64,000 nt of DNA, from contig VCJN01003222.1 in the NCBI GenBank assembly GCA_006384855.1, forward strand, positions 589,192 through 653,191. The letters run 5' to 3'. The DNA comes from Tetraselmis striata (Eukaryota > Chlorophyta > Chlorodendrophyceae > Chlorodendrales > Chlorodendraceae). How positions within the stretch are numbered: the stretch's first letter is position 1; each line of letters starts with the position of its first letter. Shown here one piece after another: positions 24,302 to 63,457 of the stretch. The notes under the pieces were generated by a model, which did not search any database, was not told the origin of the DNA, and worked only from the letters and a program-made list of their open reading frames with translations. Made by a program: the position numbers and the translations under genes.

Positions 24302-24341
24302 TCAGATTTTTTTTATCTGGCGCAAAATACAATTAGCTAGA

Positions 24342-24780: not shown

Positions 24781-24808
24781 TTTGAGTAAAAAGCGACATA
24801 TAAATTAC

Positions 24809-24820: not shown

Positions 24821-24863
24821 GCGACTCCTGGGGGTCGATGCAATGGGGTTGCGCCAAACGCGC

Positions 24864-24931
24864 GCGTTTGATTTCAGATTTATTTTCCCGGGGCCTCTAT
24901 CAAAACCCCCGGGGCGTCCGCGTCTGATCTC
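24864..24931 (+). promoter_or_regulatory. Two tandem copies of the shared motif before the DNA polymerase
   Basis: GCGTTTGATTTCAG at 24864 and GCGTCTGATCTCAAG at 24920, each followed by an A/T-rich stretch and TATTTTCC. Their presence argues that the polymerase starts at ATG 24969 and not at the upstream in-frame ATG 24843. Confidence 0.55.
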
Positions 24932-24968
24932 AAGAATTATTTTCCCCGGCCTTATCAACAACAACAAG

Positions 24969-27900
24969 ATGATCGAAGTCCCACTCCCCGCTCGTAGGAC
25001 CGTGGCGTCGGCGAATGCCTTTTTGCAGGCCCAATATGCGGAAGCCGCTCGTGACAACACCCTAAGGGGCGCCGTAGGCCTCCCGCCTCTCACGGGGCGC
25101 GAGAGACAACTTGCGGCACTACGCAGTAGCAACGAGGCTCGCCGGGCCGCGGCCGCCGCTCGCCGGGCGGCAAACCCCGGGGCCTTCACTCCCTCAGGCC
25201 GCCGCTCCCGGGCGCGCTTGACCCCCGAGGCCCGGGCCGCCGGGCGCCGGCGTACCCTCGCGAGAAACACGGTGGCGCAACGCCCCCAAACAAGAAACGC
25301 CGTCCGCACCATTGAAGCCGCGTACCGGCGGGCCCAAGAGCGCCGGGCGGCGCTAAGGTTTATGCCTTTGCAACGCACCACGTGGAACAATGGAGTCGCG
25401 AACGACTACACCATGACCATTGAAAATTTCACTCCCACCCTTGCCAACCGTCGGGCCATAGCCTCGGCGGCCGTGAGCCTCCAAGAGAGCATGATGATGC
25501 CTGGTATGCGGTCTAACATAGTGATAACCACGGAGGACGACGATGAGAATGTGAGGCATGTGAGCACCAAATTTGTAACCAATTCAGCCTCAACGGAGCT
25601 AATTGAGGACTTGGTTGAGGGGCTCGAGGAATCGTGGTTTGTAGGCTCAACCCTCCAAGTCGTTGTCAAGACCCGGGCCGCCGGAGGAGGGAGTGGAGGG
25701 TTGTTTGTGCCCGCGTTCCTCAAAAAGACAGGAGTGACTATCATCACTAACGAGGACAACTCGTGCGGCTTACGGTGCCTTTTGCTAGGCGAGGCGACCG
25801 ACGCTCAGCGCCGAAACATGTTGAAGCCCGCACGTGTTAAGCAATTGGACAAGGCGTTGGCCAAGCTAGCGACCCGTCTAGGACGCCGAGTTGACGAGGC
25901 AATGCAACTAACCGATTTTGACTCGTATACCACGCTAACTGGTATCAAGGTGGAAGTATACACGCGCTCAACAAACATAAGCCTTGTCTACGAGACTGAG
26001 TGTGACGCACCGACAAATAAGATAACAATCTTTTGGGACGCCCAACAAGCGCATTACCACCTCATTCACAAGCCGGAGACGTTTTTGAACAACGATGGAG
26101 GCAAGCACCACATGTGGTGCGGAAAATGCCGTAACTCGATTCGCCGTGAGTACTTCGCCAATCACAAGTGCATTGATTTCAAATGCAAGTGTTGCCAGAC
26201 TCGTTTTGACACGCCCGAGGGCGCCGAGGCGCACTTCATCAAACCGATATGGCGTAAATGCCCCGATTGCAACATGAATCTCCCGTCGGACGAATGCCAA
26301 GCCGCACACAAGTGCCACAAGGATGCATGGCGGTGCGAAAAATGCAAGAAGTGGATCGGCAAAGACCACCGCGAGTCGCACAAGTGCGGCGAGACTAAGT
26401 GCTCGGCATGCGGCGAACATTACACAGGCTCACACCGGTGCTTCATCAAGCCGCTCGAGAACAAAGAAGACGCCGTGCCCGGTGTGAAACCTGAAAAGGG
26501 CCGGTATTGGGTCTATGACTTCGAGAGCCGCATGGTAGATGGCAACAAGCACCATGTAGACACGGTGTGCGCAGCCGAGCTCTACACCGAAGAGACGAGG
26601 GAGTTCGAAAGCCTAGCGGCCTTCATGGAGTGGGTGCTCAAGCAAAAGAGTTCTACATTCATCGCTCACAACGCGAGGTCGTACGACGGTTGGATGATAT
26701 GGAAATGGCTTCTCGACAACACGGCCGAGCGGCCAAAGGACCTCGTGCTTGCGGGCAACAAGGTGATGTACATGGCTATGAAATCTAACCGCTTCATCGA
26801 CAGCCTCAACCACGTCGCATCGGCTCTAGACGGTCTCCCAAAAATGTTTGGGCTGGACGCCACCCGCTACAAAAAAGGCTTCTTTCCTTACACGTTCAAC
26901 ACCGAGGCGAACAAAGGGTATGTCGGCCCCATCCCCGCAATCGAGTATTTCTCGCCGGGAATGATGAAAGACAAAAAGCGGGATGAGTTTTTCAAGTGGT
27001 ATGCCGACGCAAAGGACACGGTGTACAACCTAGAAAACGAGCGGCTGGAGTATTGCCGGTCGGATGTGCAAATCCTCAAGCATGCCATGGAGAGGTACCG
27101 AGACGCGGGCATCGAGATGTTTAAGCTCGACCCACTCAAGTGCCCAACGATAGCCTCTTTTTGCATGAAAAACTATCGCACCAACTTCATGCCCGAGGAC
27201 CAAATTGCGGTTTTGAAGAAGGACGAGTACAATTTCGTAAAACGCCAATTTGCGGGAGGGCGCACAAACGCCACTCGCTTGTACCGCAAGTGGTCACCCG
27301 AGGAGATAGCCGAGGGCAATATGGGTCACAAGGTCGACGTGCAAAGCCTCTACCCCAGCGTGCAATTCTACGATGAGCTACCGGCAGGGGTGCCAACATG
27401 GGATACCGAAGAGCGAGTATTCGACAACGTTGAAGCCATGATGGAGTATGCGAGGACGCACTTCGGCTTCATCAACTGCGATCTCGACTGCCCTAATGAC
27501 CTCTTCCACCCGGTCATCCCGGAAAAGAAAGATGGCAAGCTGATTTTCGACTTGCTGCCCAAGCGTGATGTTGTTGTTAGCTCAACTGAGCTTGAGGAGG
27601 CGCTAAAGCAAGGGTACACGCTTTTGAAGGTGTACAAAGCACTAGTGTTTGATAGGTCTGACACTCTTTTTAGGAAGTACGTTTCGGCCAATCTCAAAAC
27701 CAAGGTTGAGGCGAGCGGCGCACCAAAGGGCGACATCGACGAATTCATCGATGAGCACGAGAAGAGGTTTGGGTTCCGGCTAGAGCGCGAGAAGCTTGAG
27801 GCCAACCCGGGTATGCGCGCCCTAGCCAAAATAAGCTTGAACTCGCTATGGGGAAAATTCGGGCAGAAAAACGACCAAACATCGGACATGTATTGCACGG

Positions 27901-28520
27901 AGGTCAAGCATTGGGCTTCTATCGTGGCGCGCCATACGAAGGGCGAGGTGGAAATCAAGGACTCGATCATTATCGGCGACAGCCTCCATGTCAAGTATAT
28001 GGAGCTAAGCGAAGACAAGACATGCTTGGCTCGTACCAACCTCGCGGTGGCCGCCATGGTTACCTCGCAAGCGCGTTTGCGGTTGTACCGTGAAATGGCC
28101 AAGCTGGGCCCGCGCGTGTTGTATTTCGATACCGACAGCATCTTGTACGAATACGAGCCGGGCAAGTACAATGTGGCGGAAGGGAAGTACCTTGGCGAAT
28201 GGGAGTCGGAGGAGTGGGTGAGCGAATACGCGGGGATTGGCCCCAAATCGTATGCGACTATCTCTATCTCTATCGAGGGAAAGGAGGTCACAAAGATGAA
28301 GGGATTCACGCTAAACCACGAGAATGCGCAACGAGTTAACCTCGCAAGCATGAAAAAGCTAATCGACGGCGAGAGCGATTTCCTAGAGGCCAGGCACCTT
28401 GATTTCGTACGGAAGGGGAGCGACATCAGCACCGTGGTTCAGCCTAAGCAGGCAAGCTTCAACTACACGAAGCGACGGTTGGTCGGCAAGTACCACACGG
28501 TGCCTCACGGTTATCAATGA
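24969..28520 (+). CDS. polB: Protein-primed family B DNA polymerase (pPolB)
   Basis: 1183 residues from ATG 24969 (MIEVPLPARR). Layout: a basic Arg/Ala-rich N-terminus; a region with NSCGLRCLLLG, then AHYHLIHKPETF, as in other Polinton polymerases; an array of CxxC/H zinc motifs (CGKCR, CKCCQ, CPDCN, CEKCK, CSACG); exonuclease motifs DFESRMVDG (Exo I, about residue 517), AHNARSYDGW (Exo II) and YCRSDVQIL (Exo III, about 695); and polymerase motifs DVQSLYPS (A, about 790), KISLNSLWGKFGQ (B, about 954) and YFDTDSILY (C, about 1053). All catalytic acidic residues are present. It would replicate the linear genome from a terminal protein bound to the inverted repeats. The N-terminal basic region might supply the terminal protein, which is not otherwise seen. 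Confidence 0.95.
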   Translation: MIEVPLPARRTVASANAFLQAQYAEAARDNTLRGAVGLPPLTGRERQLAALRSSNEARRAAAAARRAANPGAFTPSGRRSRARLTPEARAAGRRRTLARNTVAQRPQTRNAVRTIEAAYRRAQERRAALRFMPLQRTTWNNGVANDYTMTIENFTPTLANRRAIASAAVSLQESMMMPGMRSNIVITTEDDDENVRHVSTKFVTNSASTELIEDLVEGLEESWFVGSTLQVVVKTRAAGGGSGGLFVPAFLKKTGVTIITNEDNSCGLRCLLLGEATDAQRRNMLKPARVKQLDKALAKLATRLGRRVDEAMQLTDFDSYTTLTGIKVEVYTRSTNISLVYETECDAPTNKITIFWDAQQAHYHLIHKPETFLNNDGGKHHMWCGKCRNSIRREYFANHKCIDFKCKCCQTRFDTPEGAEAHFIKPIWRKCPDCNMNLPSDECQAAHKCHKDAWRCEKCKKWIGKDHRESHKCGETKCSACGEHYTGSHRCFIKPLENKEDAVPGVKPEKGRYWVYDFESRMVDGNKHHVDTVCAAELYTEETREFESLAAFMEWVLKQKSSTFIAHNARSYDGWMIWKWLLDNTAERPKDLVLAGNKVMYMAMKSNRFIDSLNHVASALDGLPKMFGLDATRYKKGFFPYTFNTEANKGYVGPIPAIEYFSPGMMKDKKRDEFFKWYADAKDTVYNLENERLEYCRSDVQILKHAMERYRDAGIEMFKLDPLKCPTIASFCMKNYRTNFMPEDQIAVLKKDEYNFVKRQFAGGRTNATRLYRKWSPEEIAEGNMGHKVDVQSLYPSVQFYDELPAGVPTWDTEERVFDNVEAMMEYARTHFGFINCDLDCPNDLFHPVIPEKKDGKLIFDLLPKRDVVVSSTELEEALKQGYTLLKVYKALVFDRSDTLFRKYVSANLKTKVEASGAPKGDIDEFIDEHEKRFGFRLEREKLEANPGMRALAKISLNSLWGKFGQKNDQTSDMYCTEVKHWASIVARHTKGEVEIKDSIIIGDSLHVKYMELSEDKTCLARTNLAVAAMVTSQARLRLYREMAKLGPRVLYFDTDSILYEYEPGKYNVAEGKYLGEWESEEWVSEYAGIGPKSYATISISIEGKEVTKMKGFTLNHENAQRVNLASMKKLIDGESDFLEARHLDFVRKGSDISTVVQPKQASFNYTKRRLVGKYHTVPHGYQ

Positions 28521-45265: not shown

Positions 45266-45628
45266 GCCACCGGATTTAGGGCCGATGAAGGACCCCCCAG
45301 ACGCTCGGCGGCGGCGGACGCCTACTCCGCAGGCCGAAGGCACGGCTCCTACCCCAGTACCATAGTCATAGCCAGCCGCACCGACTTAGCGATCCTTGCG
45401 GTGGGTGCGGCGGCAGCCGCCCGCTTTGTACCGTCCTTAACTGGGGTTTCTTGCCGAGCCGGATGTGGATATATCCGGTACAGCTCGGCGCCCGTCCGGC
45501 TGACAGACGTGGCGTAGGCGTCGTCTACGGGTAGGCTGCGATCTGACCGCAACCTGACTACAATCTCGGGGCGCAGTACAGGCAGATTGCTATTCGCGAT
45601 GTTGCTGCCAGTGGGTTTTCGCTACGGT
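44861..45628. other. Intergenic with a G30 run
   Basis: No gene supported. A run of 30 G lies at 45232-45261. The last ~70 bp (AATCTCGGGGCGCAGTACAG, then CGATGTTGCTGCC) are a host repeat also found at 59320-59420, which serves as the empty-site reference for the retrotransposon insertion. Confidence 0.55.
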
Positions 45629-46579
45629 TGCCGCAGCATCCGTCATATCCGCGTGCGCGTGAAGAACGGGACAGCCAAGCCCTTACGGGTCGGCTAGGGT
45701 TAAAGCTAGGGTTCCATACCCGGTTGAGACCACAGGCAGGGCACCTGATTGGTTAGGGTTCCATGCCCTGGCCATAGCCCTGAGCGAGGCGCAAGGAGAC
45801 ATACATACCGGAGATCAGAGACCCGCCCAAGCACACCTAGGCGGGACTTCTAAGGGAACTCAGATAGTACCTCTAATCGGGACCTGTAACAAGGACCCCT
45901 AAGGTAGACTACCTGCAGAAGACGAAGTACTGTACTGCTGCTGGTACAAGGCGCAAGACTCACTGTAGCCGCGGCCGAGTAGTAGTATAGGACTTAATGA
46001 GTACAATTAGACAAAGGCAGTGCGTAATGCGTCTGGCGCGCGGTGCGCGCACGGCGCGCGTGCTATTAGCACTTAGCGTGACGTGCGGCCGCCTTGCCAT
46101 GGCCGCGATCGCGTGCTTATAGAGGGCCTCCGCCTTCTGGCGGTCCCTCTTCCCCCTTGTCTTGCCTGTGTGTGCCTGTGTTTGCCTATGACAGGCATAG
46201 GCAAGAGCCTGTGTACGGGACGGAGACGGTGTAAGAGACGGAGATCGGCTTGAGGAACGAGGGCCAAAGGTAATCACGGTAGCCTGCGTGCTTGTCGTAC
46301 GGTCGCACGCGTGCTGCTCGCTGCATCGTGCGCGCGCGCTGCTGGTGGTGCTGGGTTGTCACCATTCGACCCGGTACCGACGTAAAGTACTGTAGGAACG
46401 GTTGATAGCCGCGACCAGCACTGCATAAAGTACTGCATTGCGTGGCAGTGACCTGTGGAGAGAGGCTTCATTGCCACTGGCATTCACCCCCCTGAGTACG
46501 GGCAAGACCAGCAACGCTGGTCTGAACTAAAGCCCTATAGGCGTCTGAGAGGTGCCTGTAGTGACTTAGGTTCGCGTTC
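45629..46579. repeat. Left LTR (matching part)
   Basis: 951 bp nearly identical to 55580-56530. It lacks the first ~60 bp of the inferred full LTR (present at 55519-55579). The base following is A, so the LTR end would read GTTCA. Confidence 0.9.
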
Positions 46580-47473
46580 AGACAAGGGGGAAGAGCACTC
46601 GTGGGTGAGAGTGAGTGCTAGAGGTGAGGAAAGGTCTAAGGGGTGTTGGAGACAAACCTATATGGGAACTGCTCGTAAGAGTACATAAGACTCGAAGGGT
46701 GAGGGGACAAAACCCACTAGAGGGTGGGCCAGGAAGGCCCTCGGACTAGTGAGGTGACGAGGTGTGGAGTGGTTCGAGTTTCCTTTTGGGTTTGGTGACG
46801 AGCGAGAGGCAAAGGGTTTGCCACCTCTGGGGACATTTTGTGTTTGTGCCTGAGCGAGCCGTGAACAACGGGGCATTGAGTGGACGAAGGGCACTAACGC
46901 CAAGCTAAGTGTGTTGCTGAGTGGCTCTTTCACCCAGCGCGGCCTCTGAGTGAGAGCCACGGCGTGCCGACGCTCTTTCACCATCCCGCGGGAGGTGAGA
47001 GAGCGGCGTGTTCCTTTGGGTACCAATTGGCCTGCTCCGGTTCTTTTGGCCTGCTCCGGTTCTTTTGGCATGCTCCAGTTCAACGACCTGCTCCAGTTTA
47101 ACGGTTCAACGACGACAGGTGGTAGGAGGGAGGCAGGGCGTGAGCCCGGGAGTGGGAGGGCGCCGGCTTCACAGTCGTGTGTCAGTGCCGGAGTGCACTT
47201 GGAGGGAGCGGCATCGCCGCCTGAGGGCCCCGGCGAGGGTGACGGCTGGCGGGTGCGTGGCTCAGCTCGGTGCCAACCTCTTCGTGGCGGTGGTGTGGAT
47301 CTGAGGTTCATCGGCACTGAGTTATACCGGACGTTGGAACTGTTCGTGTAGCGGCTTGAGACGGGTGTGCGCCAACACCGGCGAGGCGACGCGGCAGCGG
47401 CCCTCAGATTTCTGAGGCCGCGTGGACGCAGCCCCACTTCTGAGCTTGAGGGCCCCGGCGTGGGCGACAGCCA
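46580..47473 (+). other. Retrotransposon 5' leader
   Basis: About 0.9 kb between LTR and gag. Includes a short tandem run of GGCCTGCTCCGGTTCTTTTG at about 47029-47090. I do not see a clear tRNA-complementary primer-binding site directly after the LTR. Confidence 0.6.
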
Positions 47474-49928
47474 GTGGACGCGCTGGAAAGCGCAGAGGGC
47501 GGCTTTGCCCTGGGCGACCTGTGGGCAGCACTGGACGAGCTGGAGGAAGACCAGCTGATCGAGGAGGTCGTGGAGGGGCTGCTGAACGACGTAGACGCAT
47601 CCAACCAGGAGGGTGAGGAGTGCGATCACGAAAACGCGTACGCATACAACAGCAGCGAAGCAGAGGACAGCGGAGACGACGAGGACGAGCTCTACTTTTC
47701 CCCGCTGCCAACACGCAACCCTAGGCGAGACACTTTGTACGGACACGCGTACTTTGTGGACGACGCAATGAGCGACGATGAGATGGAGCCGCGGAGGGGC
47801 AAGGGCTCCAGCGGGAGGTTGTGGGCGGGTCACGAGAAGGCGACCTCAGAGCACACGTTTGAGACGTGGAAGAACTCTACGGACTGTGCCATGGAGAAGG
47901 AGCAACAACAGGCATTTGACCGCAACAGACCGTTCAACGAGATCCACGAGGTTCACGTGCTGCGGAGCCGCATTCAGCCAAAGTACTTGGAGTCGCTAGA
48001 GACTACACTCATCAGCCGGGGCATCAAGTACGAGGACTCGAGGATCGTACGGAGGCTGGAAGGCGCAGAACGGCTCGACTACTACCGCCGGTTGTTGGAC
48101 GGCATGTGGGAGGAGCTCGTCAACATCACCAAGCAGATCGAGCTGCATTCGGAGCGGTACAGCAAGTGCCATCGCTCGCCTGGTGAGACTGTGCGCGATT
48201 TCCGCAATCTGTTGCTAACGCACATCAGGGTCAAGAACCTGGTCACCGAGGAGACGACACGCATTGTGGAGATATTGCGCGTCAACGTGGAGTTCATCGA
48301 GCGGGCCTGGGGCAAGACGCGTTTCAGCCCCCGCATCAACTTCGCACAACAACAACTCGTGGACTACACGATGGACACCCAGGTGGACAGGACCTGGGAG
48401 ATGGCTGAGTGGCTCGACAAACAGGAGCGCGGCAGCATTCACATGCGCGCTCACTCGCGCGTCCAGAGCGGAGGCGGCAGGCGGGGTTTTGACCACGAGG
48501 AGCACAACAGTCGCGGTGGCGGTCGCGGCAGCAACAGCCGTGGTCGTGGAGGCAGCCACGGAGAGGGTGGCAACTACCATCGACGTGGAGGTGGAGGAGG
48601 TGATCGTGGAGGCGGGCGCACGGAGAGGAGCGCTTACGCCCGTGATGGAGATGATGGTGGGCGAGGCAGCCACGTCAATGAGGCAGGTTGCTATGGTTGT
48701 GGGTCGAAAGATCACTACAAGAGCGACTGCCCTCTGTGGAGCAAGACGTGCTCTGAGTGTGGCAAGAAGGGCCACATTGCCAAGCGGTGCTGGAAGGCCA
48801 ACCCTGATCTCCGCCCGGAGACCGCCATGGCAGCAACCAATCCCAGGGAGCACATCAGAGTGCGCGAGGAGCCCAAGAAGCCGGACCGCAAGTCGTGCAT
48901 GATGTGTGGCAAGGATGCGGACCATACAACTGAGGAGTGCGGGAAGCTGCGCAAGTTCGTTGCGAACTTGCAGGCGACAGACGGCCACGAACCCAAGTAC
49001 CCGCCGCTCAACGGCTATGCTCAAGTCGTCGGCAGCGAGGAGGGCGAGGTGGTGGGGCTGGCAGCAGCCAGCCAGTTGCGCCCACAGCGTAAGAGCACGG
49101 AGGCTCAACGCCATGGCGTCAACACGGTGCGCATGGAGGACGGAGAACGTGAGGCCAGGCAGCGGAGGGCTGCCTCGCGGCTTCACCACCCCATCGATGG
49201 AGATGGCGCAGCAAATGCACAGCCGTACAGAGCTGACGGCGAAGCTCACCAGCGCAGCTCAGAGCGTCACGGTGCCTGTGTCACTGGCCAACGGCGGTGG
49301 ACAGCCGCGCATGCCACTGATGGAGATCGCCAAGCGGCTGGTCAAGCACGAGCCCGTGGAGGATGGCTGGGAGAAGCATGCTGTCATGCGTGCTCTGGAG
49401 AGCAAGCGAGTCTCCATCAGCTTGATGGAGGCTTACCAGCTCGAGCGCAGCGGCGGCGGGATGATGGAGAGCGTCATGGCAACAGCATGGGGCGGCGGTG
49501 CCCTGAGTACCGAGCCGATCAGCAGCCACGCTCACTCAGCCAGGACCTCGAGCGGGGAGCGCGCCTTCGAGGCAGCGCTGATGATGGTGGAGGAGGTCGC
49601 TGACCAACAAAGCGGCGGCAAGTCTACCGCGGAGGAGAATACCGCTGGCGGAGAGGCTGAGACTGAACGGTCTTTTGCCATTTACCGGCCAGGTCAACTC
49701 GCGAGACAACGCGAGGAGGAGGAAGATCGCAAGCGTGCAAATGCGCAGCGCAATGCCAGCACGGCGGTTGAGGAGGCATCACTATGTCGCCGCAGCGGCA
49801 AGTGGGAACCCGCCACTGACTATCGACGCAGTGCCACTGAGGCAGACATCAGTGAGCAAGCACTACGGCTGCCCAAAGGGTCTGAGACCCGACGCTGCCT
49901 GGAGCAGCAGGCGGAAGTCGCCAACTAG
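47474..49928 (+). pseudogene. gag: Gag with three CCHC zinc knuckles, one frameshift
   Basis: ATG 47474 (MDALESAEGGFALGDLWAAL). Acidic N-terminus, then a helical capsid-like region (about residues 120-310: LDYYRRLLDGMWEELVN, then RDFRNLLLTHIRVKNL), then an RGG-rich basic linker and three knuckles: CYGCGSKDHYKSDC, CSECGKKGHIAKRC and CMMCGKDADHTTEEC. Sense then moves to the +1 frame between about 49150 and 49200 (QQMHSRTELTAKLTSAAQ) and runs to a TAG at 49926. Gag packages RNA and forms particles. The third knuckle has an altered spacing. Confidence 0.8.
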
Positions 49929-50680
49929 GGCATTTTTGCCCTTCAGCCCACGGGGGCTGAGGCGAAGGAGCAGCCGGAGACGGCTCGGCTTGACACCATC
50001 ACGTGCGAGTTGCACGCCAACAATACCCTGCTGCAGTGCGAGACCATTTCCGACGGCGGGAGCAGCCACACCCGCATGAACGCATGAGCGATGGAACCAA
50101 GCGCGGCGGAGGCCGTGGTGAAGGGCGCTGGCGGGTGGGTAGACGTCGACATGGTGGTGGTGCTCGCCAATGGCAAGCGCTCATGCGAGCAGCAACGACG
50201 ATTGCGGGATGGCGTGGTCTTCACGCTTCGGGACCCCGTCACCTCAATCATGGCAGCTCATCACGCACCGCGCGTGTACGAGAATGGAGGCGAGGCACCG
50301 GGCTTGCTGCTCGGTGGACCCACCATCACAGCCCTCGGGCTGCGACCGGACCCGGCGACCAGAATCTGCACTTTCCGCGCACCCAACCGACCGGCCGGCA
50401 GAGTGCCACTGCTCAGTCAAACGGCGTGGGAGCGGCGGGTACGCGAGCACCAACCTATGGTGCGCGTGGAGAGAGCGAGCTACTGCCATGGGGTGGAGCT
50501 CGGCGATGATGAGATGGGGGAGGAGAGTGGGGGGGGCAGTGACGTGTCTCACAGCCACGCCGCCCACGAACCCTCACGGCGTGACGTGCAAGAGTCCAAG
50601 ACCTGCGAGCCGGCAGACCTACCGCCTTTGCGGGAGGTGCAGAGCCTGCAGCGTCACGGGTTGGCGAGGCTGAGCACCCG
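49929..50680 (+). pseudogene. Retroviral-type aspartic protease region
   Basis: Same frame as the end of Gag, directly after the TAG. LLQCETISDGGSSHTRM would be the active-site loop (D-G-G instead of the usual D-T/S-G). A TGA follows at 50085-50087, then the frame goes on (VDVDMVVVLANGKR, and PGLLLGGPTITALGLRPD, which matches the ILG-type C-terminal protease motif). The unusual active-site triad and the stop make activity doubtful. Confidence 0.5.
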
Positions 50681-50684
50681 CGAA

Positions 50685-51300
50685 GAGGGCATCAGCCTGT
50701 ACGAGCCATGTGGCGGAGGCTACGTTGCCGTGCTGAATGCCATGCTGGCCAACGGTCAGAAGGTGGCCATATACCGGCATTCGGACATCGACCCGGCAGC
50801 CCGCAAGGCCGCTGGGCAGCGTGTTCAAGGAGCTCAGTAGGAGATATCCGGATCTATTACCAGCTAGCGCGATCAAGGGGTGGGACTCGTTCCCACAGGA
50901 CATCACGGCGATCACAGCGGAGGACGTGAGGCGCCTGCCATACATAGACATAGTGGGGTGTGGATGGCCTTGCCCAGGCATGAGCAGAGCCAATCGCAAC
51001 GCGCTGGGATTGCGCGACCGGAGGTCACGTTTGCTCTTTCATGTGGCCGCGTTCATCGATAAGCTCGAGGAGAAGCAGCCCACCGGCGTGGGGTGGCTGC
51101 TGGAGAACGTGGAACGAGAGAGACGAGATCAACGCAGGATGCAGAAATCCTGCGGAAGAGCATGGCAGCAGCTGTGTCAACGGGCGCTATGCTGCTGGCT
51201 GCTGCTCATTTGGTTGGGCGGCACGTCAATGCACTTCAGCGAGGCGAGTCGTCTCAGCAACACCACGGTGTTAGCCATGTTCGTGGCAGTGATGGTGCGC
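50685..51300 (+). pseudogene. C5-cytosine DNA methyltransferase-like domain inside Pol
   Basis: Motif I-like SLYEPCGGGYVAVLNAML is followed by the cofactor-acid segment IYRHSDIDPAARKA in the protease frame. A +1 shift at about 50810-50835 leads to RRYPDLLPASAIKGWDSFPQ, DIDIVGCGWPCPGMSRAN-type motif IV with the catalytic Pro-Cys (50952-50978), and motif VI LLENV (51097-51111). The order and spacing are those of DNMT-type enzymes, which methylate cytosine in DNA. The later motifs and target-recognition part are not readable in one frame (possibly AMLLAAAHLVGRHVNALQRG in another). DNMT domains in retrotransposons are known from some charophytes and dinoflagellates; here the domain lies between protease and RT. 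Confidence 0.75.
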
Positions 51301-51379
51301 GCGAGCGCGCGCTACCGCCGCGAGGTGACGGCGACAAGCATGGCGGGGCGCCGAGCTTTCGGCGCCAACGCCGTGTCGG

Positions 51380-52938
51380 ACGGCGGCGGGACTGCGCAAC
51401 GGAGTAGCGCTGCTGCGTGGGCCAATCGTGGCTACACGCAGGCAAGTATGAATGATCACGTGGAGGATGTTCGCAGCCTGAAGGATCCTGAGAAACACTG
51501 GCGGTGCGGGCGCGAGTGCGAGGCTTCACAGCAACGACAGCTAGTGGAGCTCTGCGACAGCTTTTGGGATGACGTGTGGGTGTGGTCCGTCAGCGACCTA
51601 CCGGCCGTCAACCACTGGGAGTTCAGGATACCGACGACCAACACGCAGCCCATCAAGCGACCCAAGTACCGATTGAGGAAGACTGAGTGGGACTTCGTGG
51701 ACAGCTGGTGCAAGGAGCTGTTGGCAGCTGGGGCGATACTCGAGAGCCAATCTCCCTACAGCATCCCAGTAGTGTGTCCACCGAAGAAGGACGACGACGG
51801 CAACTGGACCGGGATCCGGGTGTGTTTGGACGCTCGCCCGTTGAACAGTGTCACTGAGTCGTGGGCGTATTGTATGCCCAAGACAGACGAGCTACTCAGC
51901 AAGGTCGCAGGCGCGCGCATGTACAGCGGGTTTGACGCCAAGTCGGCGTTTCATCAGCTGCCCCTCGCAGAGGAGGACAGACACAAGACTGCCTTTTGGG
52001 GCAGCGACCGGCAGTATGAGTGGTGCCGGATGGCGATGGGCTTCAAGAACGCCAGCCAAGCATGGCAGCGTGTCACGGATGAGGCCCTTGGCGATCTGCC
52101 GTTCGTGGCGGTTTACGCCGATGACATCTGTGTCTTTTCAGGCGCAGCCGAGATGAGCGACGCTGAGGTGTTTCAGCAGCACCTTCAGCATTTGGAGACG
52201 GTGTTTCAGAGGCTCGCAAAGGCGGGCATCAGACTGGCGCCCGGCAAGGGGCGCATGGCCGTGAGGCAGATTGCTTTCTTAGGCCATTGGGTCGACGGCG
52301 AAGGCGTGTTCCCGCAGCACTCCAAGGTGGAGGCTGTGGTGAAGATGCCGCCGCCAACTGACGTTGCGGGGCTTCGGCGCTTCCTCGGCATGGTGGGCTA
52401 CTACGGCAAGTTCATCGAGCAAGTTGCAGTCAAGCGCAAGCCGCTGACCAAGCTCACCGGCAAGGTGCCGTGGGAGTGGGGATCGGAGCAGCAACGAGCC
52501 TTCGAGCAGCTCAAGGCAGACCTGGTTTCAGCTCCCGTGCTGAGAAATCCGGATTGGAGCCGCCCTTTCATCCTGCACACCGATTTCAGCGGAGCTGGAT
52601 TGGGCGCGGTGCTGGCGCAGGAGGACGACGAAGGACAGGAGTATGTGGTGGAGTTTGCGAGCCGCACCTGCCAAGGCGCGGAGCCAAACTATGCCAGCTA
52701 TGAGGGTGAGTGTCTTGCCATGTTGTATGGCATGGACAAGTTCAGATAATATATGTTTGGCAGGCAGTTTGTGGTGGTGACATATCATCGGCCTTTGGAA
52801 TGGCTGATGAACACCGCTCAGCTTCGTGGGAAGTTGGCGCGGTGGGCGATGAGGCTCAGCGAGTACGACTTCGTGGTTCGCTATCGGAAGGGCGTTCACC
52901 ACGTCAACGCAGATTGTCTGAGTCGGGGGCCCGTGTAG
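51380..52938 (+). pseudogene. pol: Reverse transcriptase and RNase H
   Basis: One long frame. RT: PIKRPKYRLRKTEWDF, then PYSIPVVCPPKK, RVCLDARPLN, MYSGFDAKSAFHQLPL and the catalytic VYADDICVFS (about 52107-52136), then KAGIRLAPGKG and AFLGHWVDGEGV. RNase H: FILHTDFSGAGLGAVLAQ and YEGECLAMLYG. A TAA at 52747-52749 interrupts, and the frame continues FGRQFVVVTYHRPLEWL, where the usual T-D-H is T-Y-H, a likely loss of an active-site Asp. A TAG at 52936 ends it. RT copies the RNA genome; RNase H degrades it. Confidence 0.9.
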
Positions 52939-52989
52939 GGCGACCCAACGGAGCTGGATGGGCGCGGTGAGTTTTCACCGGAGGGCACC

Positions 52990-55452
52990 GTGCGACATGC
53001 GGCAGCCTTTTGGTGCGCATCGGCTCAGAGCAGCCGGCAGCCGGAGCTGTCAGCATGGGCGCGACGCCGCGTGCTGGACACCGCCCATGAGGGCACGTCC
53101 GACGGCGACTTGGTGGCGGTTACCGGCGAGCTGACGGCGGGACCGCGGAGAGGCGATCCGTGGATGGACGCGGAGGCGATGGCGGAGCTGCATGCGGGCA
53201 ACGTCAACATGCCGCAACCTTATGCCCGCTATACATGGAGAAACAACATCTTGTGGTATTTACACAAGGACGGCACGTACCGCGAGGTACCGCCACCCAG
53301 TGAGCGAGACACCGTGATTATGGATGTGCATGTCAAGATGGGCCATTTGGGGCGGGATCGGCTGCGCAGTGTTATCGCCGCTTCATATTTCTGGCCAGGG
53401 ATGGTGGAGGATGTAGCCCGAGTCAAGAAGGCGTGTCCGGACTGCGATCGGCTGCAACATCGACCCGGCGGCACCAGCGGTCGCCCAAAGGCAGCCTCAC
53501 CGCTGGACATGCAGCCGCTGCCGCACTTCGGCATGTTCTACCGCTGGCACTTGGACTTGGCGGGGCCTTTTGAGGCCACCCGCAGTCGCAACGTCTGGGT
53601 ATTGGTGATGGTGGAAGCGGCGAGCAAGTGGATGGAGTTGGTGCCGCTGCGCACCAGGGAGGCAGCCAACATACGACAAGCCTTTCAAGAGAGAGTGCTG
53701 GCGCGTTTCGCGGCGCCCGGCGAGGTGTGTACCGACGGCGGTACCGAGTTCAGCGGCGAGTTCCACGAACTTCTCGTGGAGCATGACATCGATCATCCGA
53801 AGCCGCTGCCCTATCATCCGCAGCCCAATGGGTTGGCGGAAGGGATGGTGAAAACAGTCAAGGAGGCACTGATGCGCTATGTAATTCAGCCCGGCAAGCG
53901 CGTCGTGTGGGACTTTTTTCTGCCTTCCATCGAGCTGGGCTACCGTTGCAGCAAGCAAGCAAGCACCAGGTACAGCCCATACGAGTTGGTGTACGGCAGG
54001 GCGCCCGTGTTTCCCGCGCAGGCGAGAGCGCTCTTTGAGGAGAGCGCCGTTGACTTCAACAGCCCGGAGGGCATGTGGGAGCTGATGACAGTGCGCGCGG
54101 AGCGTTTGGCGCTCATGGTGCCGACGGCGATGCACAACGTGGAGGCGGCGCAGCATCGTGAAGTGATGCGCTATCGCAGGAGGCGCGCGGGGTTGGTGGC
54201 GCCCGGAGTGCAGCGCTTCAGCCCCGGCGACTTCGTCTACGTGCAACAGCGGCAGCAAGACGCGCTCGATCCACGAGTGCGACCGGCTGTTTACAAGGTT
54301 TACGAGGTGAACGACAACGGAGTGGTGGTCATCCAAGGAGCTGACGGCGACACGGCGCGCGTGCGCGTTGAGGAGCTGGCGCGGTGCACCGTTCCATACG
54401 TGGTGTTGCCGGCAGGATTTGAAGACCCAAATATGGCGTGCGAGGAGTGCGACGGGCGCGTCAGCACCCAGCGCAACCCGATCATCATCTGCGAAGACTG
54501 TGAACGAGGCTGGCACAAGTTGTGTCATCAGCCACCTGTGGCGCGTGTGCCGCGGGGGGCATGGCGGTGTGCGGAGTGCAGCGCTGATGACGCAGCGTTG
54601 CCAGCACATTGGACATCGGTGGCTTTAGCCGCCACAACAATCAGTGACAACGACGACAGCGACGAGGAGATTCAAGACCCTGCCCCGCCTTTGCAGCCGA
54701 CAAGAGCAGCGGTGGCAGCAAGACTGAACTGGGGCATGCCTGGCGCCTGGCACCCAGCAACTGTGACAAGAACGATGAACAACCTTCAAGCAGCCAATGA
54801 CTATCTACCGGCAATCAGTAACCAAGTGAGCGAGTACGCTGCGCTAGCCAACGTGATCAAGTGGCGTGGCCGAGTAATCTTTGATCCGTGGGCGGAACAT
54901 GGCAGCACCGCTGAGGCCTTGCGGCCGTGCGGTGCGACAGTGATCAACAACGACTTCAATCCGATGTCCCAAACTGAGATGTGCGAGGACGCGCTGGAGT
55001 CCTTTGTGTACCAGTGCGCTCGCGATGTAACCGCAACCGTGGCGACGACGACGATGACGACGACGACGATGACGACAACGATGATGACAACACAGCCGCG
55101 GTTAGAGGCCCCTTTCATAGTGGTGACCTCCCCGTGTTTCCAACTACTTGATCTGGCGCTGCCAATCATGGCGTCATGCGCGGACATCCTTTTCGTGCAA
55201 GTACCGATCTTCTACATCGCGCAGGGACCTTCCCCGCGCATGCAGTGGCTACGGCATCTAGGCGACTGTGGGCGGCTCCACATTATTGCCGGCGACATGC
55301 AGCGTAACCGCACTACGCGCCGATCAACCCTGTGGCTCGCGGTCTTCCGCAACAACGAGCTGCGAGAGCGAGAACTGCGAGCTGAGTGGCGTCACTCCGT
55401 GGCGCCAATTCACTTCCACACCGAGGCGTGCGCTGGCGACCAGCATCACTGA
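52990..55452 (+). CDS. Integrase, PHD finger and C-terminal methyltransferase-like domain
   Basis: Same frame as RT; sense actually resumes after the TAG at 52936, and the first ATG is 52990. 820 residues. Integrase: HHCC zinc finger (HVKMGHLGRDRL, then ACPDC), DDE core WHLDLAGPF, VCTDGGTEF and NGLAEGMVKT. PHD finger at 54436-54579 (CEECDG, then CEDCERGWHKLC, then WRCAEC), a histone-tail reader that could direct integration. C-terminal domain (about 54830-55420): VIFDPWAEHGSTAEALRP, NNDFNP, then VTSPCFQLLDLALP, resembling motif I and the S/D-P-P-Y/F box of amino-methyltransferases, with the second Pro replaced by Cys. A (ACG/ATG)n Thr/Met tract lies between these motifs. Confidence 0.85.
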   Translation: MRHAAAFWCASAQSSRQPELSAWARRRVLDTAHEGTSDGDLVAVTGELTAGPRRGDPWMDAEAMAELHAGNVNMPQPYARYTWRNNILWYLHKDGTYREVPPPSERDTVIMDVHVKMGHLGRDRLRSVIAASYFWPGMVEDVARVKKACPDCDRLQHRPGGTSGRPKAASPLDMQPLPHFGMFYRWHLDLAGPFEATRSRNVWVLVMVEAASKWMELVPLRTREAANIRQAFQERVLARFAAPGEVCTDGGTEFSGEFHELLVEHDIDHPKPLPYHPQPNGLAEGMVKTVKEALMRYVIQPGKRVVWDFFLPSIELGYRCSKQASTRYSPYELVYGRAPVFPAQARALFEESAVDFNSPEGMWELMTVRAERLALMVPTAMHNVEAAQHREVMRYRRRRAGLVAPGVQRFSPGDFVYVQQRQQDALDPRVRPAVYKVYEVNDNGVVVIQGADGDTARVRVEELARCTVPYVVLPAGFEDPNMACEECDGRVSTQRNPIIICEDCERGWHKLCHQPPVARVPRGAWRCAECSADDAALPAHWTSVALAATTISDNDDSDEEIQDPAPPLQPTRAAVAARLNWGMPGAWHPATVTRTMNNLQAANDYLPAISNQVSEYAALANVIKWRGRVIFDPWAEHGSTAEALRPCGATVINNDFNPMSQTEMCEDALESFVYQCARDVTATVATTTMTTTTMTTTMMTTQPRLEAPFIVVTSPCFQLLDLALPIMASCADILFVQVPIFYIAQGPSPRMQWLRHLGDCGRLHIIAGDMQRNRTTRRSTLWLAVFRNNELRERELRAEWRHSVAPIHFHTEACAGDQHH

Positions 55453-55502
55453 GCGTCAATTGGCGCCCAGCGGCCGCTCACCCTTCTGGCGACCAACCGT
55501 CT

Positions 55503-55518
55503 GGGGGGGGGGGGGGGG
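55503..55518 (+). promoter_or_regulatory. G16 run, probable polypurine tract
   Basis: Sixteen G directly followed by TGGGCCGCC. A purine run right before a TG is where plus-strand priming defines the U3 start, so the full LTR probably begins at 55519. Confidence 0.6.
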
Positions 55519-55579
55519 TGGGCCGCCCATTGAGCTGGTGACAGCGCCCCACGCGGGAATGCAAGCATGCGACGGCAGC

Positions 55580-56530
55580 TGCCGCAGCATCCGTCATATC
55601 CGCGTGCGCGTGAAGAACGGGACAGCCAAGCCCTTACGGGTCGGCTAGGGTTAAAGCTAGGGTTCCATACCCGGTTGAGACCACAGGCAGGGCACCTGAT
55701 TGGTTAGGGTTCCATGCCCTGGCCATAGCCCTGAGCGAGGCGCAAGGAGACATACATACCGGAGATCAGAGACCCGCCCAAGCACACCTAGGCGGGACTT
55801 CTAAGGGAACTCAGATAGTACCTCTAATCGGGACCTGTAACAGGGACCCCTAAGGTAGACTACCTGCAGAAGACGAAGTACTGTACTGCTGCTGGTACAA
55901 GGCGCAAGACTCACTGTAGCCGCGGCCGAGTAGTAGTATAGGACTTAATGAGTACAATTAGACAAGGGCAGTGCGTAATGCGTCTGGCGCGCGGTGCGCG
56001 CACGGCGCGCGTGCTATTAGCACTTAGCGTGACGTGCGGCCGCCTTGCCATGGCCGCGATCGCGTGCTTATAGAGGGCCTCCGCCTTCTGGCGGTCCCTC
56101 TTCCCCCTTGTCTTGCCTGTGTGTGCCTGTGTTTGCCTATGACAGGCATAGGCAAGAGCCTGTGTACGGGACGGAGACGGTGTAAGAGACGGAGATCGGC
56201 TTGAGGAACGAGGGCCAAAGGTAATCACGGTAGCCTGCGTGCTTGTCGTACGGTCGCACGCGTGCTGCTCGCTGCATCGTGTGCGCGCGCTGCTAGTGGT
56301 GCTGGGTTGTCACCATTCGACCCGGTACCGACGTAAAGTACTGTAGGAACGGTTGATAGCCGCGACCAGCACTGCATAAAGTACTGCATTGCGTGGCAGT
56401 GACCTGTGGAGAGAGGCTTCATTGCCACTGGCATTCACCCCCCTGAGTACGGGCAAGACCAGCAACGCTGGTCTGAACTAAAGCCCTATAGGCGTCTGAG
56501 AGGTGCCTGTAGTGACTTAGGTTCGCGTTC
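55580..56530. repeat. Right LTR (matching part)
   Basis: 951 bp, about four differences from the left LTR. It is followed by 18 bp of filler (56531-56548) and then 58 bp (56549-56606) that copy 55520-55577 with one mismatch. Confidence 0.9.
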
Positions 56531-56610
56531 TGAGGAATTAGTGACTTAGGGCCGCCCATTGAGCTGATGACAGCGCCCCACGCGGGAATGCAAGCATGCG
56601 ACGGCACGGT

Positions 56611-57189
56611 TGACGGCGCCGCGGCTGCGTGAACGGCGGCGGGCAACCCCGCGCGCGTTCAGCCGTGGCGCCGTCGCCGGCGGTTATCTAGCAGTGGCTA
56701 GGGCCGGCCTGTACGCGGGTTCCCGTATTCTGCAGGGGACGGCAAGCCGAAGGGAAATCGTGTGCAATGAGCAGGGCTGATTTATTCTTTTCAGCCGCCG
56801 ACCTTGTGCGCGAGCCCGGTCGCGACTCGTCGATTGTCGGCGGGTGTAGCGTGCAAATCCAGTAGGTCCAGTACCGGTATTGGTATAGCGACTGCTTGCA
56901 GCTCTACAATCTCCCCGGTACTAGCCACTACATTCTTGGGGCGCGGCACTGGCAGACCTGTGAGTTTGCTAGTATTCTAAGTTATACTACGCCACGATTG
57001 ATGGCGCCACGAGGTGAGCGGGTGTAGGGTGCATATATGAGATGTGATATGCAGGTAGGCTACTACGATCTGACTATACAACAGCGAGTAAGGACAGTTG
57101 CGATAGGCATGCGGTAACTGCCTACCTGGCTGAAACACCTTCCTTGTCCGGGTATTGGTTGCATACTTGCATGACAAAAGCGCATATGC
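56611..57189. other. Host repeat flank, no gene
   Basis: Continues the host repeat interrupted by the retrotransposon (TGACGGCGCCGCGGCTGCGTG, matching 59393 onward). No coding evidence. Confidence 0.55.
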
Positions 57190-59330
57190 TTGACGAGAAA
57201 GTACGATTGCTAGCGAGGCGCTCGCCCGAGAACTTCAGTTTGGCTTACTGAAAGCCCTAGGCTGTTGCGCCCCGCCGCAGATTGTTGCCTTAGGCAGATT
57301 TTGAATCCATGCACGGCTGCACGCCTTGCAGTACCCGAATAATGCCGCATACAGAAGTATTATGCATGCGCATGGGCTCGACGACAAGAAACTGGTGAAT
57401 AATTACACCCCTATCATAGGTACATCATATTGGCGACGGCGAGCCCTAGATTGTTGCGCTGCGCCGCAAATTGTTGTTCTCTCGGCAGGCGGAAACTGCC
57501 TACGTGGCTGAAACGCTTTCCTTGTCTGGGTATTTGTTGCATACTTGTATGACAAAAGCGCATAGGCTTGACGAGAAAGTACGACTGCTAGCGAGGCGCT
57601 CGCCCAAGAACTTCACTTTGGCTTAGGATTGAACGCCCTAGATTGTTGCTCCCCGCCGCAGATTGTTGCCTTAGGCATATTTTGAATCCATACACGGCTG
57701 CACGCCTTGCAGTACCCGGATAATGCGGCATAGAGGTATTATGTATGCGCATGGGCTCGACGACACGACACAGGTAGATAGCCTCGCCCTCATGTACATC
57801 ATATTGGCGACGGCGAGCCCTATATTGTTGCACTGCACAACAGATTGTTGTTCTCTCGGCAGGCGGAAACTGCCTACGTGGCTGAAACGCTTTCCTTGTC
57901 TGGGTATTTGTTGCATACTTGTATGACAAAAGCGCATAGGCTTGACGAGAAAGTACGATTGCTAGCGAGGCGCTCGCCCGAGAACTTCACTTTGGCTTAG
58001 TACTGAACGCCCTATCCTAGATTGGGGCGCCCCGCCGCAGATTGTTGCCTTAGGCAGATTTTGAATCCATACACGGCTGCAAATTACCCGGATATGCGGC
58101 ATACAGAAGTATTATGCATGCGCATGGGCTCGACGACAAGAAACTGGTGACTAGCCATACCCCTAGGTACATCATATTGGCGACGGCGAGCCCTAGATTG
58201 TTGCGCTGCGCCGTAGATTGTTGCCTTCGGCAGGCGGTAACTGCCTACACGGCTGAAACACCTTCCATGTCTGGGTATTTGTTGCATACTTGTATGACAA
58301 AAGCGCATAGGCTTGACGAGAAAGTACGACTGCTAGCGAGGCGCTCGCCCAAGAACTTCACTTTGGCTTAGGATTGAACGCCCTAGACTGTTGCGCCCCG
58401 CCGCAGATTGTTGCCTTGGGCATGTTCTAAATCCATACACGGCTGCAAGCCTTGCAGTACCCGGATAATGCGGCATAGAGAGGTATTATGTATGCGCATG
58501 GGCTCGACGACACGACACAGGTAGATAGCCTCGCCCTCATGTACATCATATTCGCGACGGCGAGCCCTAGATTGTTGCGCTGCACAACAGATTGTTGCCT
58601 TCGGCAGGCGGAAACTGCCTACCTAGCTGAAACACTTTCCTTGTTCGTGTTTTTGTTGCATAATTGTATGACAAAATCCAATATTGTACGACTGCTAGCG
58701 AGGTGCTCGCCTGAGAACTTCACATTGGCTTACGTAAAGCCCCAGATTGTTGCGCCCCGCCGTAGATTGTTGCGTTAGGGATGTTTTATTAAATCCATAC
58801 ACGGCTGCTTACATTACCCGGATAATGCGGCATATAGAAGTAGTATGCACGCGCATGGGCTCGGCGACAAGACGCAGGTGGATAGTTACACTCCTAGGTA
58901 CACCATATTCGCGACGGCGAGCCTTATATTGCTGCGCTGGGATTGTTGTTGCCTTCGGCAGGCGGTAAATGTCAACATGGCTGAAATACTTTCCATGTCT
59001 GGGTATTTGTTGCATACTTGTATGACAAAATCCGATTGCTAGCAAGGTGCTCGCCTGAGAACTTCACTTTGGCTTGCGGAAAGCCCTAGATTGTTGCGCC
59101 CCGCCGCATATTGTTGCCTTAGGCATATTTTGAATCCATACACGGCTGCAAGCCTTACAGTACCCGGATAATGCGACATAGAAGTATTATGCATGCGCAT
59201 GGGCTCGACGGCAAGACACATGTAGATAGATACACCCCCAGGTACACCATATTCGCGACAGCGAGCCCTAGATTGTTGCGCTTCACAACAGATTGTTGGC
59301 TTCGGCAGGCGGGAACGGCCTAATCTCGGG
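57190..59330. repeat. Satellite-like tandem array, about 345-380-bp unit, six copies
   Basis: The phrase GCTAGCGAGGCGCTCGCC marks successive units near 57208, 57588, 57959, 58328, 58692 and 59038. Each unit also has GATTGTTGC-type phrases, CATACACGGCTGCA, GCATGCGCATGGGCTCGACG and TTGTTGCATACTTGTATGAC. Short frames inside it are repeat translations. Confidence 0.9.
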
Positions 59331-61600: not shown

Positions 61601-62255
61601 AACTTCATGAGAACGCATGATGGTGCCGGCCCGCGGCGCTTGTAAACTCGCGGCTTTATTTGCGGACATCCTCTATGTATCACACGACTTCTCCGCGTGT
61701 ATTTCAAGTCACGCAGAAAAGGCCAAAACCGGGCTCGCGCACAATCTCGGCGGCTAGATAGAGAAAAACTGCCCACTGATTGCACCCCCCGACTTCGTGC
61801 CGGCTTGCCGCCCCCGGTACATACGGGTACCCGTATGTAGTACCTCGGTCGTAGCCACTGCTTGATGATATTTGGCGGGATTGCGCCACTACGGCTGGGC
61901 GAGCGCGGCGACTTGCCCGCCGCAGCTCGCGCAGCCGTGGCGCCGCAAATCGTAGGGTAGTATTGTTTTATTTAAGACTACGTGTCAGCCACCGTCTCGC
62001 ATTGGTCTGCCGGTACCGGTACCACACCCCGACGGAGATTTAGCGAGTACAGGGGAGATTGTAGAGTAATTAGCGACGATTAGCGCTACTCGCTACGAAT
62101 AGTCGCTACCGGTACTGGTAGTCGCTACCCCACAAGATATGCACGCTGCTACACCCGCCGGCATACATACAACGAGTCGTCGCGACAGGGCTTGCGCACA
62201 ATCTCGGCGGCTCAAGAAGAAGAATAGTTTAAGTGCTCTGGGACTGATGTCTACC
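61601..62255. other. No gene recognised
   Basis: Two copies of TAGTCGCTA (62100 and 62120) and short repeats related to the flanking arrays (CGCGCACAATCTCGGCGGCT at about 61735 and again at 62193). Confidence 0.5.
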
Positions 62256-62880
62256 TTTGTCTTGATGTCGTCGAGCCCATGCGCATGCATAATACTTCTA
62301 TGCCGCATTATCCGGGTACTATAAGGCGTGCGGCCGTGTATGGATTTAAAACATGCCTAGGGCAACAATCTGCGGCGGGGCGCAACAATCTGGGGCTTTA
62401 CGTAAGCCAATGTGAAGTTCTCAGGCCAGCACCTTGCTAGCAATCGGATTTTGTCATACAAGTATGCAACAAATACTTGGACAAGGAAAGTGTTTCAGCC
62501 GTGTAGGCATTTACTCCTGCCGAAGGCAACAATCTCCGGTGGAGCACATCAATCTAGGGCTCGTCGTTGCGAATATGATGTTAGTACATGAGGGTGTGGC
62601 TATTTATCTGTGTCTTATCGTCGAGCCCATGCGCATGCATAATACTTCTGTATGCCGCATTATCCGGGTACTGCAAGGCGTGCAGCCGTGTATGGATTCA
62701 AAATATGCCTAAGGCAACAATATGCGGTGGGGAGCAACAATCTAGGGCGTTCAGTCCTAAGCCAAAGTGAAGTTCTCGGGCGAGCACCTCCCTAGCAGTC
62801 GTACTTTCTCGTCAAGCCTATGCGATTTTGCCATACAAGTATGCAACGAATACCCGGACATGGAAGGTGTTTCAGCCGTG
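62256..62880. repeat. Two inverted copies of the 57-59 kb satellite unit
   Basis: The reverse complement matches the array at 57190-59330 (GTCGAGCCCATGCGCATGCA, CAGCCGTGTATGGATT, CATACAAGTATGCAAC). Copies begin near 62260 and 62620. Confidence 0.85.
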
Positions 62881-63457
62881 TAGGCAGTTTCCGCCTGTGT
62901 GACAGTTATACTGTATTGTGACTTGTCATGCGCTATCTTTGGCATAATACAGTACGAGAGCCGGTACCACTACTGAATGATGTACATTCTACGGGTACTA
63001 GAGTACGAGTGCGCGCATGTCACGCGCACGAGTACTCGTATATCGGCCTGCTGTATTAATATAATTATGTCTGCCTGTCTGTCAGATATATTCTATCCTT
63101 GACAGTGCAGGGGATATGTTATGTATTGCCGTACAATGACGGGGCTGACGTTCTGCCTACTGTCTGATTCTCCATGGTGACGCCCTTGGCAGTGGGCGTG
63201 CTGCTAGTGGTCGGCATGGCCTGATGGCCAGTGCCGACGATAGCTAGTCTATTATTAGCAGCGGGTGGTGACAACTTGTAACAATGATTGTATTCCAAAA
63301 ACACTGTAGCCTCTCGCCTGAGCACCACCACTGCACACCCACCTTTGTTTGACCCTGCAGTATCTATCCTGTTGAGACTGCCGCACTGGCTTCGGAGCGA
63401 GTGTTAGCTCCAGAATCTTCAAGTCTTCCACTGCAAGTACTCCTCGTTTGTTGTATA
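62881..63457. other. No gene recognised
   Basis: AT-richer sequence with only short frames. Possible promoter region for the exons that follow, but no element is clear. Confidence 0.45.

Follow-up and report, generated by a model that had tools for sequence, protein, structure and literature searches.

The window analysed here, a stretch of 64,000 nucleotides from the green alga Tetraselmis striata (contig VCJN01003222.1, positions 589,192 to 653,191 of the forward strand), holds a Ty3/gypsy-type long terminal repeat (LTR) retrotransposon at 45629-56606, one copy of a family that carries two methyltransferase domains and a PHD finger. The account that best explains this family, to which we give somewhat better than an even chance, is that of a gypsy element with two open reading frames (ORFs), a +1-recoded DNA methyltransferase (DNMT) of the DNMT3 type, a PHD finger and a second methyltransferase dependent on S-adenosylmethionine (SAM). 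ORF1 would encode Gag together with the SAM-binding end (motifs I and II) of a DNMT3-type cytosine-5 methyltransferase, and ORF2, in the +1 frame, would encode the catalytic rest of that enzyme, reverse transcriptase (RT), RNase H, a DDE integrase, the PHD finger and the second, class I SAM methyltransferase, with Gag-Pol arising by +1 ribosomal frameshifting. This account is built from the domains, their order and their frames, the open frames of sibling copies, the predicted fold of the second domain, the terminal repeats and the target duplications. A first-pass annotation of the window had already remarked that two methyltransferase folds in one gypsy Pol are not a standard arrangement, a judgement with which the present analysis agrees.

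Family members and their domains

The genome was searched in full (224 Mb, 2903 contigs), and 20 siblings, among the best-scoring copies, were fetched for comparison. Eleven of these 20 have an uninterrupted ORF2 of 1771 codons, and two more have one of 1767 and 1753 codons. Nine proteins stand closest at E <= 1e-3, eight of them T. striata gene models, including six that align over about half of the query and are 85-96% identical over that part; the ninth, P0001, comes from another assembly, has 1732 residues, is 60% identical, and carries DNMT, RT, RNase H, integrase and PHD finger in a single frame. Chance does not account for the domain set, since the siblings and P0001 repeat it in unchanged order. 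The siblings carry both methyltransferase domains, so that the refuting condition set by the first-pass annotation, siblings that lack them, did not arise, though motif I of the DNMT lies in the other ORF.

A DNA methyltransferase divided between two frames

Three strings on which the DNMT assignment had first been based are all present where that annotation put them: EPCGGGY (motif I) at 50703-50723, GCGWPCPGMS (motif IV) at 50956-50985 and ENV (motif VI) at 51103-51111. The assignment of a DNMT-like domain was not refuted by the profile search for a C5-methyltransferase, as PF00145 matches the translation of 50737-52746 above its cut-off (E 4.3e-5, 23.5 bits against 22) and DNMT3A, DNMT3B and DNMT3C are the best solved relatives; what has to be given up is the picture of one complete domain, since motif I lies in another frame than motifs IV and VI and the window copy is without motifs VIII to X. 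The proposed position between protease and RT is right as to the RT, which follows; no aspartic protease was recognised by Pfam in the ORF1 of a sibling even at E <= 10, a DGGSS motif being visible by eye only. A profile built from this genome's gypsy and copia DNMTs, with the corresponding part of P0001 included, places DNMT3A (3e-14), DNMT3C and DNMT3B at the top and DNMT2 at 2e-7, and the gypsy domain alone likewise has DNMT3A as its top match, weakly (E 0.001). DNMT2, HaeIII, HhaI and DNMT1 were considered as nearest kin and set aside, all being weaker than DNMT3 against the DNMT profile. By motifs I, IV, VI, VIII and X and by its nearest relatives, the family enzyme is a C5 methyltransferase of the DNMT3 type, though one split over two frames.

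In the window, motifs I (EPCGGGY) and II (SDID) lie in frame 3, in an ORF at 50088-50840, and frame 1 has motifs IV and VI, in an ORF that opens at 50737. The N-terminal DNMT part in the ORF1 frame spans 50685-50840 (+) and ends with TAG at 50838-50840, and the overlap of the two frames at 50737-50840 (+) is the proposed +1 recoding region. The same split is found in 10 of 10 siblings that could be displayed (the anchor string was not matched in the other 10 of the 20), and it is therefore not damage of the window copy alone. ORF1 of the sibling L041 runs uninterrupted over 1129 codons, from Gag across motif II up to a stop after RVQGAQ, and across the genome, by match coordinates, the offset between the DNMT parts is +1 in 57 of 69 loci with both parts side by side. 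Sixteen of the 20 siblings share, without a single difference, the 70 nt that run from motif II to beyond the ORF1 stop. P0001, which begins MRLLGSAFKDLSE, aligns with the sibling DNMT right from the break and contains no motif I, which would in its case too lie in another frame. An assembly error was rejected as the source of the split, since copies on many different contigs agree in this arrangement and P0001 starts at that point too.

A complete DNMT needs recoding because motifs I and II are in the Gag ORF and the rest is in Pol at +1; the two frames probably have to be joined during translation. Recoding of the +1 kind between Gag and Pol is used by Ty elements. Here the step would fall inside the DNMT domain itself, and the shift site, if so, must fall between motif II and the TAG.

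Several observations weigh against this account. The Pfam DNMT matches stop short of motif I, and the usual form of that motif differs from EPCGGGY. The offset is other than +1 in 12 of the 69 loci, ten of them diverged copies, and among the diverged loci (below 90% identity in either part) it is +1 in 10 of 20; nine of the 12 have a stop in a matched part and three do not (one diverged copy, L050, was too decayed to read). The observed/expected ratio of CpG is 0.97 in the element, compared with 1.05 over the window's first 45 kb; the element being undepleted of CpG, there is no sequence sign of long-term dense CpG methylation. A singleton spectrum of CpG decay (20 siblings and the window) was discarded, as 391 of its 585 singletons came from the misaligned locus L026.

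The split might alternatively be an old lesion that became fixed, so that the element now spreads without making a whole DNMT. Its occurrence in every displayable sibling and in most loci by coordinates would be compatible with such a history, as would the window copy, which lost half of its DNMT yet has near-identical terminal repeats, so that a defective DNMT may not have blocked its mobilisation (possibly in trans). A fixed lesion is nonetheless unlikely given what has been retained: motifs I, II, VI, VIII, IX and X are kept in 19 of 20 siblings and motif IV in 18, and P0001 starts at the same break and retains motifs IV to X. Likewise, in the 11 siblings whose ORF2 is open, the ratio of nonsynonymous to synonymous polymorphism (pN/pS) for motifs IV-X of the DNMT is 0.19, lower than for integrase (0.25) or RT (0.42); RNase H has 0.34, the PHD finger 0.09 (from just 4 variants), the second methyltransferase 0.40 and the DNMT-RT stretch 1.10 (9 variants). 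These counts are small, however, domain bounds were set by hand and the siblings were best-scoring copies chosen for an open ORF2.

Joining of ORF1 and ORF2 by splicing of a small intron, rather than by frameshifting, is the least probable of the alternatives. T. striata gene models do have introns in the overlap region (P0009) and in the PHD region. However, conservation with P0001 in the +1 frame sets in at the break residues (GSAFKDLSE / GSVFKELSR) and motif II of ORF1 is just upstream, which leaves little room for an intron, and retrotransposons require unspliced genomic RNA.

A PHD finger and a second methyltransferase-like domain behind the integrase

A PHD finger after the integrase, likewise proposed in the first-pass annotation, is borne out: the Cys4-His-Cys3 finger at 54439-54579 (+) matches PF00628 above the cut-off in the window (E 1.8e-6) and in P0001, and its best solved relatives are the PHDs of DPF3, ATXR5, ubi-d4 and MLL3 (E 4.5e-12 to 1e-10). 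As a member of the PHD family it probably binds histone tails. The methyltransferase-like domain that follows occupies 54694-55449 (+), with the motif I position at 54880-54903, NNDFNP at 54946-54963 and the motif IV position at 55126-55140. The strings FDPWAEHGST, NNDFNP and TSPCF, by which this domain had been noticed, are indeed present after the integrase at 54880-55140, yet FDPWAEHG and TSPCF turn out to be altered forms, the siblings having FDPWAGHG (20 of 20) and TSPWF (19 of 20).

The C-terminal 250 residues match no Pfam family above cut-off. The AlphaFold2 model of the domain from a sibling copy, computed with 22 sequences, has a predicted TM score of 0.87 and the class I SAM methyltransferase fold, as anticipated by the earlier reading of a second, different methyltransferase. 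A first model (8 sequences, mean predicted local distance test score (pLDDT) 56) was too weak, and its matches were left unused when the 22-sequence model replaced it. Motif I precedes motif IV, as in amino methyltransferases, and in its modelled structure the domain appears near to N6-adenine enzymes; an amino (N6-adenine or N4-cytosine) type of methyltransferase is its most likely identity.

Substrate and activity are a separate matter. Instead, this SAM-methyltransferase fold may have RNA or protein as its substrate, or may be catalytically dead and help the integrase by binding nucleic acid, and we consider this possible but doubtful. Catalysis is not assured, because motif IV reads SPWF, not SPP(Y/F/W), in 20 of 22 family members (SPPF and SPHY occur once each), and Foldseek with the 22-sequence model puts the tRNA methyltransferase MnmM and Rv0187 first; both facts are unfavourable to a DNA-modifying enzyme. 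The Foldseek matches as a whole are many class I methyltransferases, mixed, with TM scores by query of 0.28-0.46, and those in a viral structure library are phage and other methyltransferases together with unnamed proteins (best E 3.4e-7); with matches so mixed, the claim is limited to the fold and does not extend to the substrate. A dead binder or an RNA or protein enzyme accords less well with an active-site pattern in which none of the 22 members departs from S-P, L-D, P171, R182 and W214, the D-P and G of motif I are nearly as constant, and one relative has SSPPF; nor does it accord with the DNA methyltransferase profiles matched by some members of the family, or with the best solved-sequence match, a cytosine-N4 DNA methyltransferase, weak as that match is (E 0.017).

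The second domain is paired with a PHD finger in 4 of 28 relatives found. Narrow-pattern searches found no relatives of it in viral contigs and prokaryote genome contigs, nor of P0001 in viral contigs, and with patterns so narrow they give no clue to the source of the domain. Homologues also occur elsewhere in the genome in short ORFs of 232-273 aa (30-38% identity, with many further matches), for example at L047 501-1196, L048 463-1281 (-) and L049 409-1170; by eye, no integrase or RT is present at these three within the 2.1 kb examined.

Three of the T. striata models, P0004, P0006 and P0008, have no DNA_methylase or PHD match at E <= 1, which on its face speaks against the domain set; the reason is that the models begin after motif IV and, through predicted splicing, skip half of the PHD finger. 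More generally, P0002-P0006, P0008, P0009, P0013 and P0016 fuse IIICED directly to LINN(D/N)FNP, and the region so removed, the second half of the PHD finger and motif I of the second methyltransferase, is open in frame in the fetched siblings. Consequently, gene models that splice out the PHD finger and second domain have hidden both from domain databases.

Proposed mechanism and its implications

DNMT-bearing retrotransposons are already known, and the question at stake is why an element would carry its host's silencing enzyme. With the frame change inside the DNMT, the SAM-binding enzyme would exist only in the frameshifted, particle-packaged product. A DNMT tied in this way to the Gag-Pol switch is predicted to work on cDNA within the particle rather than throughout the host cell; in the particle it would most likely methylate cytosines of the new cDNA. 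The C-terminal enzyme, beside the integrase, might place a second, amino-methyl mark on the cDNA or else at the target site. The PHD finger probably tethers the integration complex to a state of the histone H3 tail, the role that chromodomains have in chromoviruses. It is possible that the family marks itself with 5-methylcytosine (5mC) and a second base mark. The fuller proposal is tentative, and we think it more apt to fail than to hold: the family would write two DNA marks, 5mC through a recoding-gated DNMT3-type enzyme active only in packaged Gag-Pol, and N6-methyladenine or N4-methylcytosine through the PHD-linked enzyme behind the integrase, thereby pre-marking its cDNA and choosing or marking its insertion site. 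A DNMT limited to the particle would provide a direct test of the self-methylation idea, while the PHD finger with its second methyltransferase, recurring in relatives from other assemblies, points to a tail module of retroelements that is more widespread and has no name as yet. Both ideas can be tested on copies with open frames, and T. striata can be cultured.

Comparison with known elements

The closest known element is KnitGypsy-Dnmt3 of Klebsormidium nitens, in the available main text a Gypsy with a Dnmt3 domain in the Pol ORF, under purifying selection, and with DIRS-like A-coding-B-A-B repeats around a gypsy domain set (de Mendoza et al. 2018, PMC5890265). Compared by description, the Tetraselmis element has in common with it the Dnmt3 in a Gypsy Pol and the A-coding-B-A-B ends; that main text does not mention a PHD finger, and the sections of it consulted describe neither a second methyltransferase nor a frame split. 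The hosts differ as well, a charophyte for KnitGypsy-Dnmt3 and a chlorodendrophyte here. In yeast, no signal was obtained from the DNMT of the K. nitens gypsy element, a result its authors judged inconclusive and one that does not help the case for activity of the Tetraselmis enzyme, whereas the DNMT of SymbioDIRS-Dnmt3 methylated CG in yeast, and methylation of cDNA in the particle was proposed for that element (PMC5890265). SymbioDIRS-Dnmt3 and SymbioLINE-Dnmt of dinoflagellates are, as far as the same main text goes, likewise DNMT-carrying retrotransposons, the DIRS type with split repeats and an active DNMT3 (PMC5890265). SymbioDIRS, however, uses a tyrosine recombinase and SymbioLINE is a LINE, in contrast to the DDE integrase and 4-bp target duplications of the Tetraselmis element. 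DIRS elements with a Dam-like adenine methyltransferase similarly have an amino-methyltransferase-type domain in a retrotransposon polyprotein, but they belong to another element class, and no DNMT alongside is described in the available text (PMC5890265, PMC6338049).

DNMT3 domains in LTR Copia elements are also reported, in the text accessible to us (Sarre et al. 2025, PMC12344493). The T. striata genome has such elements of its own: of 33 weak DNMT matches of this kind (24-31% identity), the two examined, L045 (G000:C2518:35800-44300) and L046 (G000:C1430:144400-152900), are Ty1/copia-type elements whose DNMT, in a single frame, sits after the Gag zinc knuckle and ahead of the protease/integrase part, with no PHD finger by Pfam. 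Pfam gives DNA_methylase, Pol_BBD and rve in both, DNA_methylase above cut-off only in L045, and RVT_2 in L046. Chromoviruses are gypsy elements with a chromodomain, a chromatin-reader type of domain, after the integrase; in the Tetraselmis element a PHD finger replaces it, followed by the methyltransferase-like domain, and no chromodomain was matched by Pfam after the integrase at E <= 1.

For Tetraselmis itself, DNMT5a and DNMT6 are reported in the available text of PMC9998398, and that of PMC12695648 does not mention the genus. In a literature search that covered neither supplements, RepBase nor most subscription papers, no paper was found that describes Tetraselmis retrotransposons with DNMT, PHD or methyltransferase domains, and no report of a PHD finger and second methyltransferase behind a gypsy integrase or of a DNMT split by the Gag-Pol frame change. 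While DNMT3 in gypsy, DIRS and copia elements is already in print, the tail of PHD finger and second methyltransferase and the frame-split DNMT therefore appear to be new.

Boundaries and class of the element

The element starts with TG and ends with CA. Its 5' LTR, terminal repeat A1 (45629-46579, +, 951 bp), is 99.6% identical to A2 (55580-56530, +), with 4 mismatches. A short repeat, B1 (55520-55577, +), stands before A2, separated from it by GC, and is 98.3% identical to the 58-bp B2 (56549-56606, +), which forms the 3' end of the element (...GGCA). The order is therefore A-coding-B-A-B, with an extra B at the 3' end beyond a plain LTR pair. The second B follows A2 in the window and in 13 of the 20 fetched siblings (one a 22-nt partial match); of the others, five are without it, one contig stops inside A2, and one has its second match elsewhere, inverted. 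The sequence CGGT at 45625-45628 is repeated identically at 56607-56610, and such 4-bp target duplications immediately border A1 and B2 on their outer sides in all 5 copies that have readable sequence at either end, the window and four siblings (CGGT, GGTG, GTGT, GGAG and GCCC), which sets the limits of the element; one further fetched sibling flank, without the start of A1, is outside this count.

The split direct repeats are a DIRS-like trait. However, no match to the tyrosine recombinase that is the hallmark of DIRS was found in the scanned ORFs, which have a DDE integrase (PF00665 and PF17921) instead. Gag zinc knuckles and the order RT, RNase H, DDE integrase are those of Ty3/gypsy elements by Pfam, and among solved proteins the sibling Pol is closest to Ty3 Gag-Pol (E 2.3e-75). 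At the B1-A2 junction (window 55570-55590) the palindrome GGCA-GC-TGCC joins both element termini through 2 nt, like a circle junction, and suggests replication through joined ends with 2-nt end processing. A run of G just upstream of B1, at 55503-55518, recurs before B2 in 2 of 4 sibling spacers examined and may be a polypurine tract.

The copy in the window and its surroundings

The copy in the window is dead, within an otherwise young and partly intact family. What remains of ORF1 (47450-50840, +), with the same stop as in L041, comprises Gag with two zinc knuckles, an unrecognised protease region and DNMT motifs I and II; the gag has a frame break near 49.1 kb. The first part of ORF2 (50737-52749, +), which ends in TAA at 52747-52749, has Pfam matches to DNA_methylase, RVT_1 (PF00078), RT_RNaseH_2 (PF17919) and RT_RNaseH (PF17917), with the RT at 51781-52290 and RNase H from 52477 (both +). 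Its second part (52939-55452, +) follows a TAG at 52936-52938, and Integrase_H2C2, rve and PHD are matched over 52939-55449, the integrase zinc finger (PF17921) at 53290-53457 and the DDE core (PF00665) at 53539-53796 (both +). Besides the TAA and this TAG, in-frame stops occur at 49926-49928 and 50085-50087; an alternative genetic code was rejected as their explanation, ORF2 being open by the standard code in 11 of 20 siblings.

The window copy differs from the sibling L025 by 81 substitutions and by a single in-frame deletion of 600 nt, which lies immediately behind ENV (at 51110-51112, +) and removed the DNMT from there to the linker. Motifs VIII to X are thereby deleted and the catalytic domain is incomplete. 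With half of the catalytic DNMT domain lost and both key motifs of the second enzyme altered, this copy cannot mark its own DNA, contrary to what the first-pass annotation had supposed. The A repeats of the dead copy nevertheless differ at only 4 of 951 sites, which may be read in two ways, mobilisation in trans after the damage or damage that is in part an assembly error.

Beside the element, at 57100-59320, lies a tandem array of units of about 370 bp, with an inverted copy at 62.3-62.9 kb (62250-62900). The AT skew at 24000-28000 is 0.15-0.18, above the other 2-kb steps outside the element, and within the element it reaches 0.23 at 48-50 kb.

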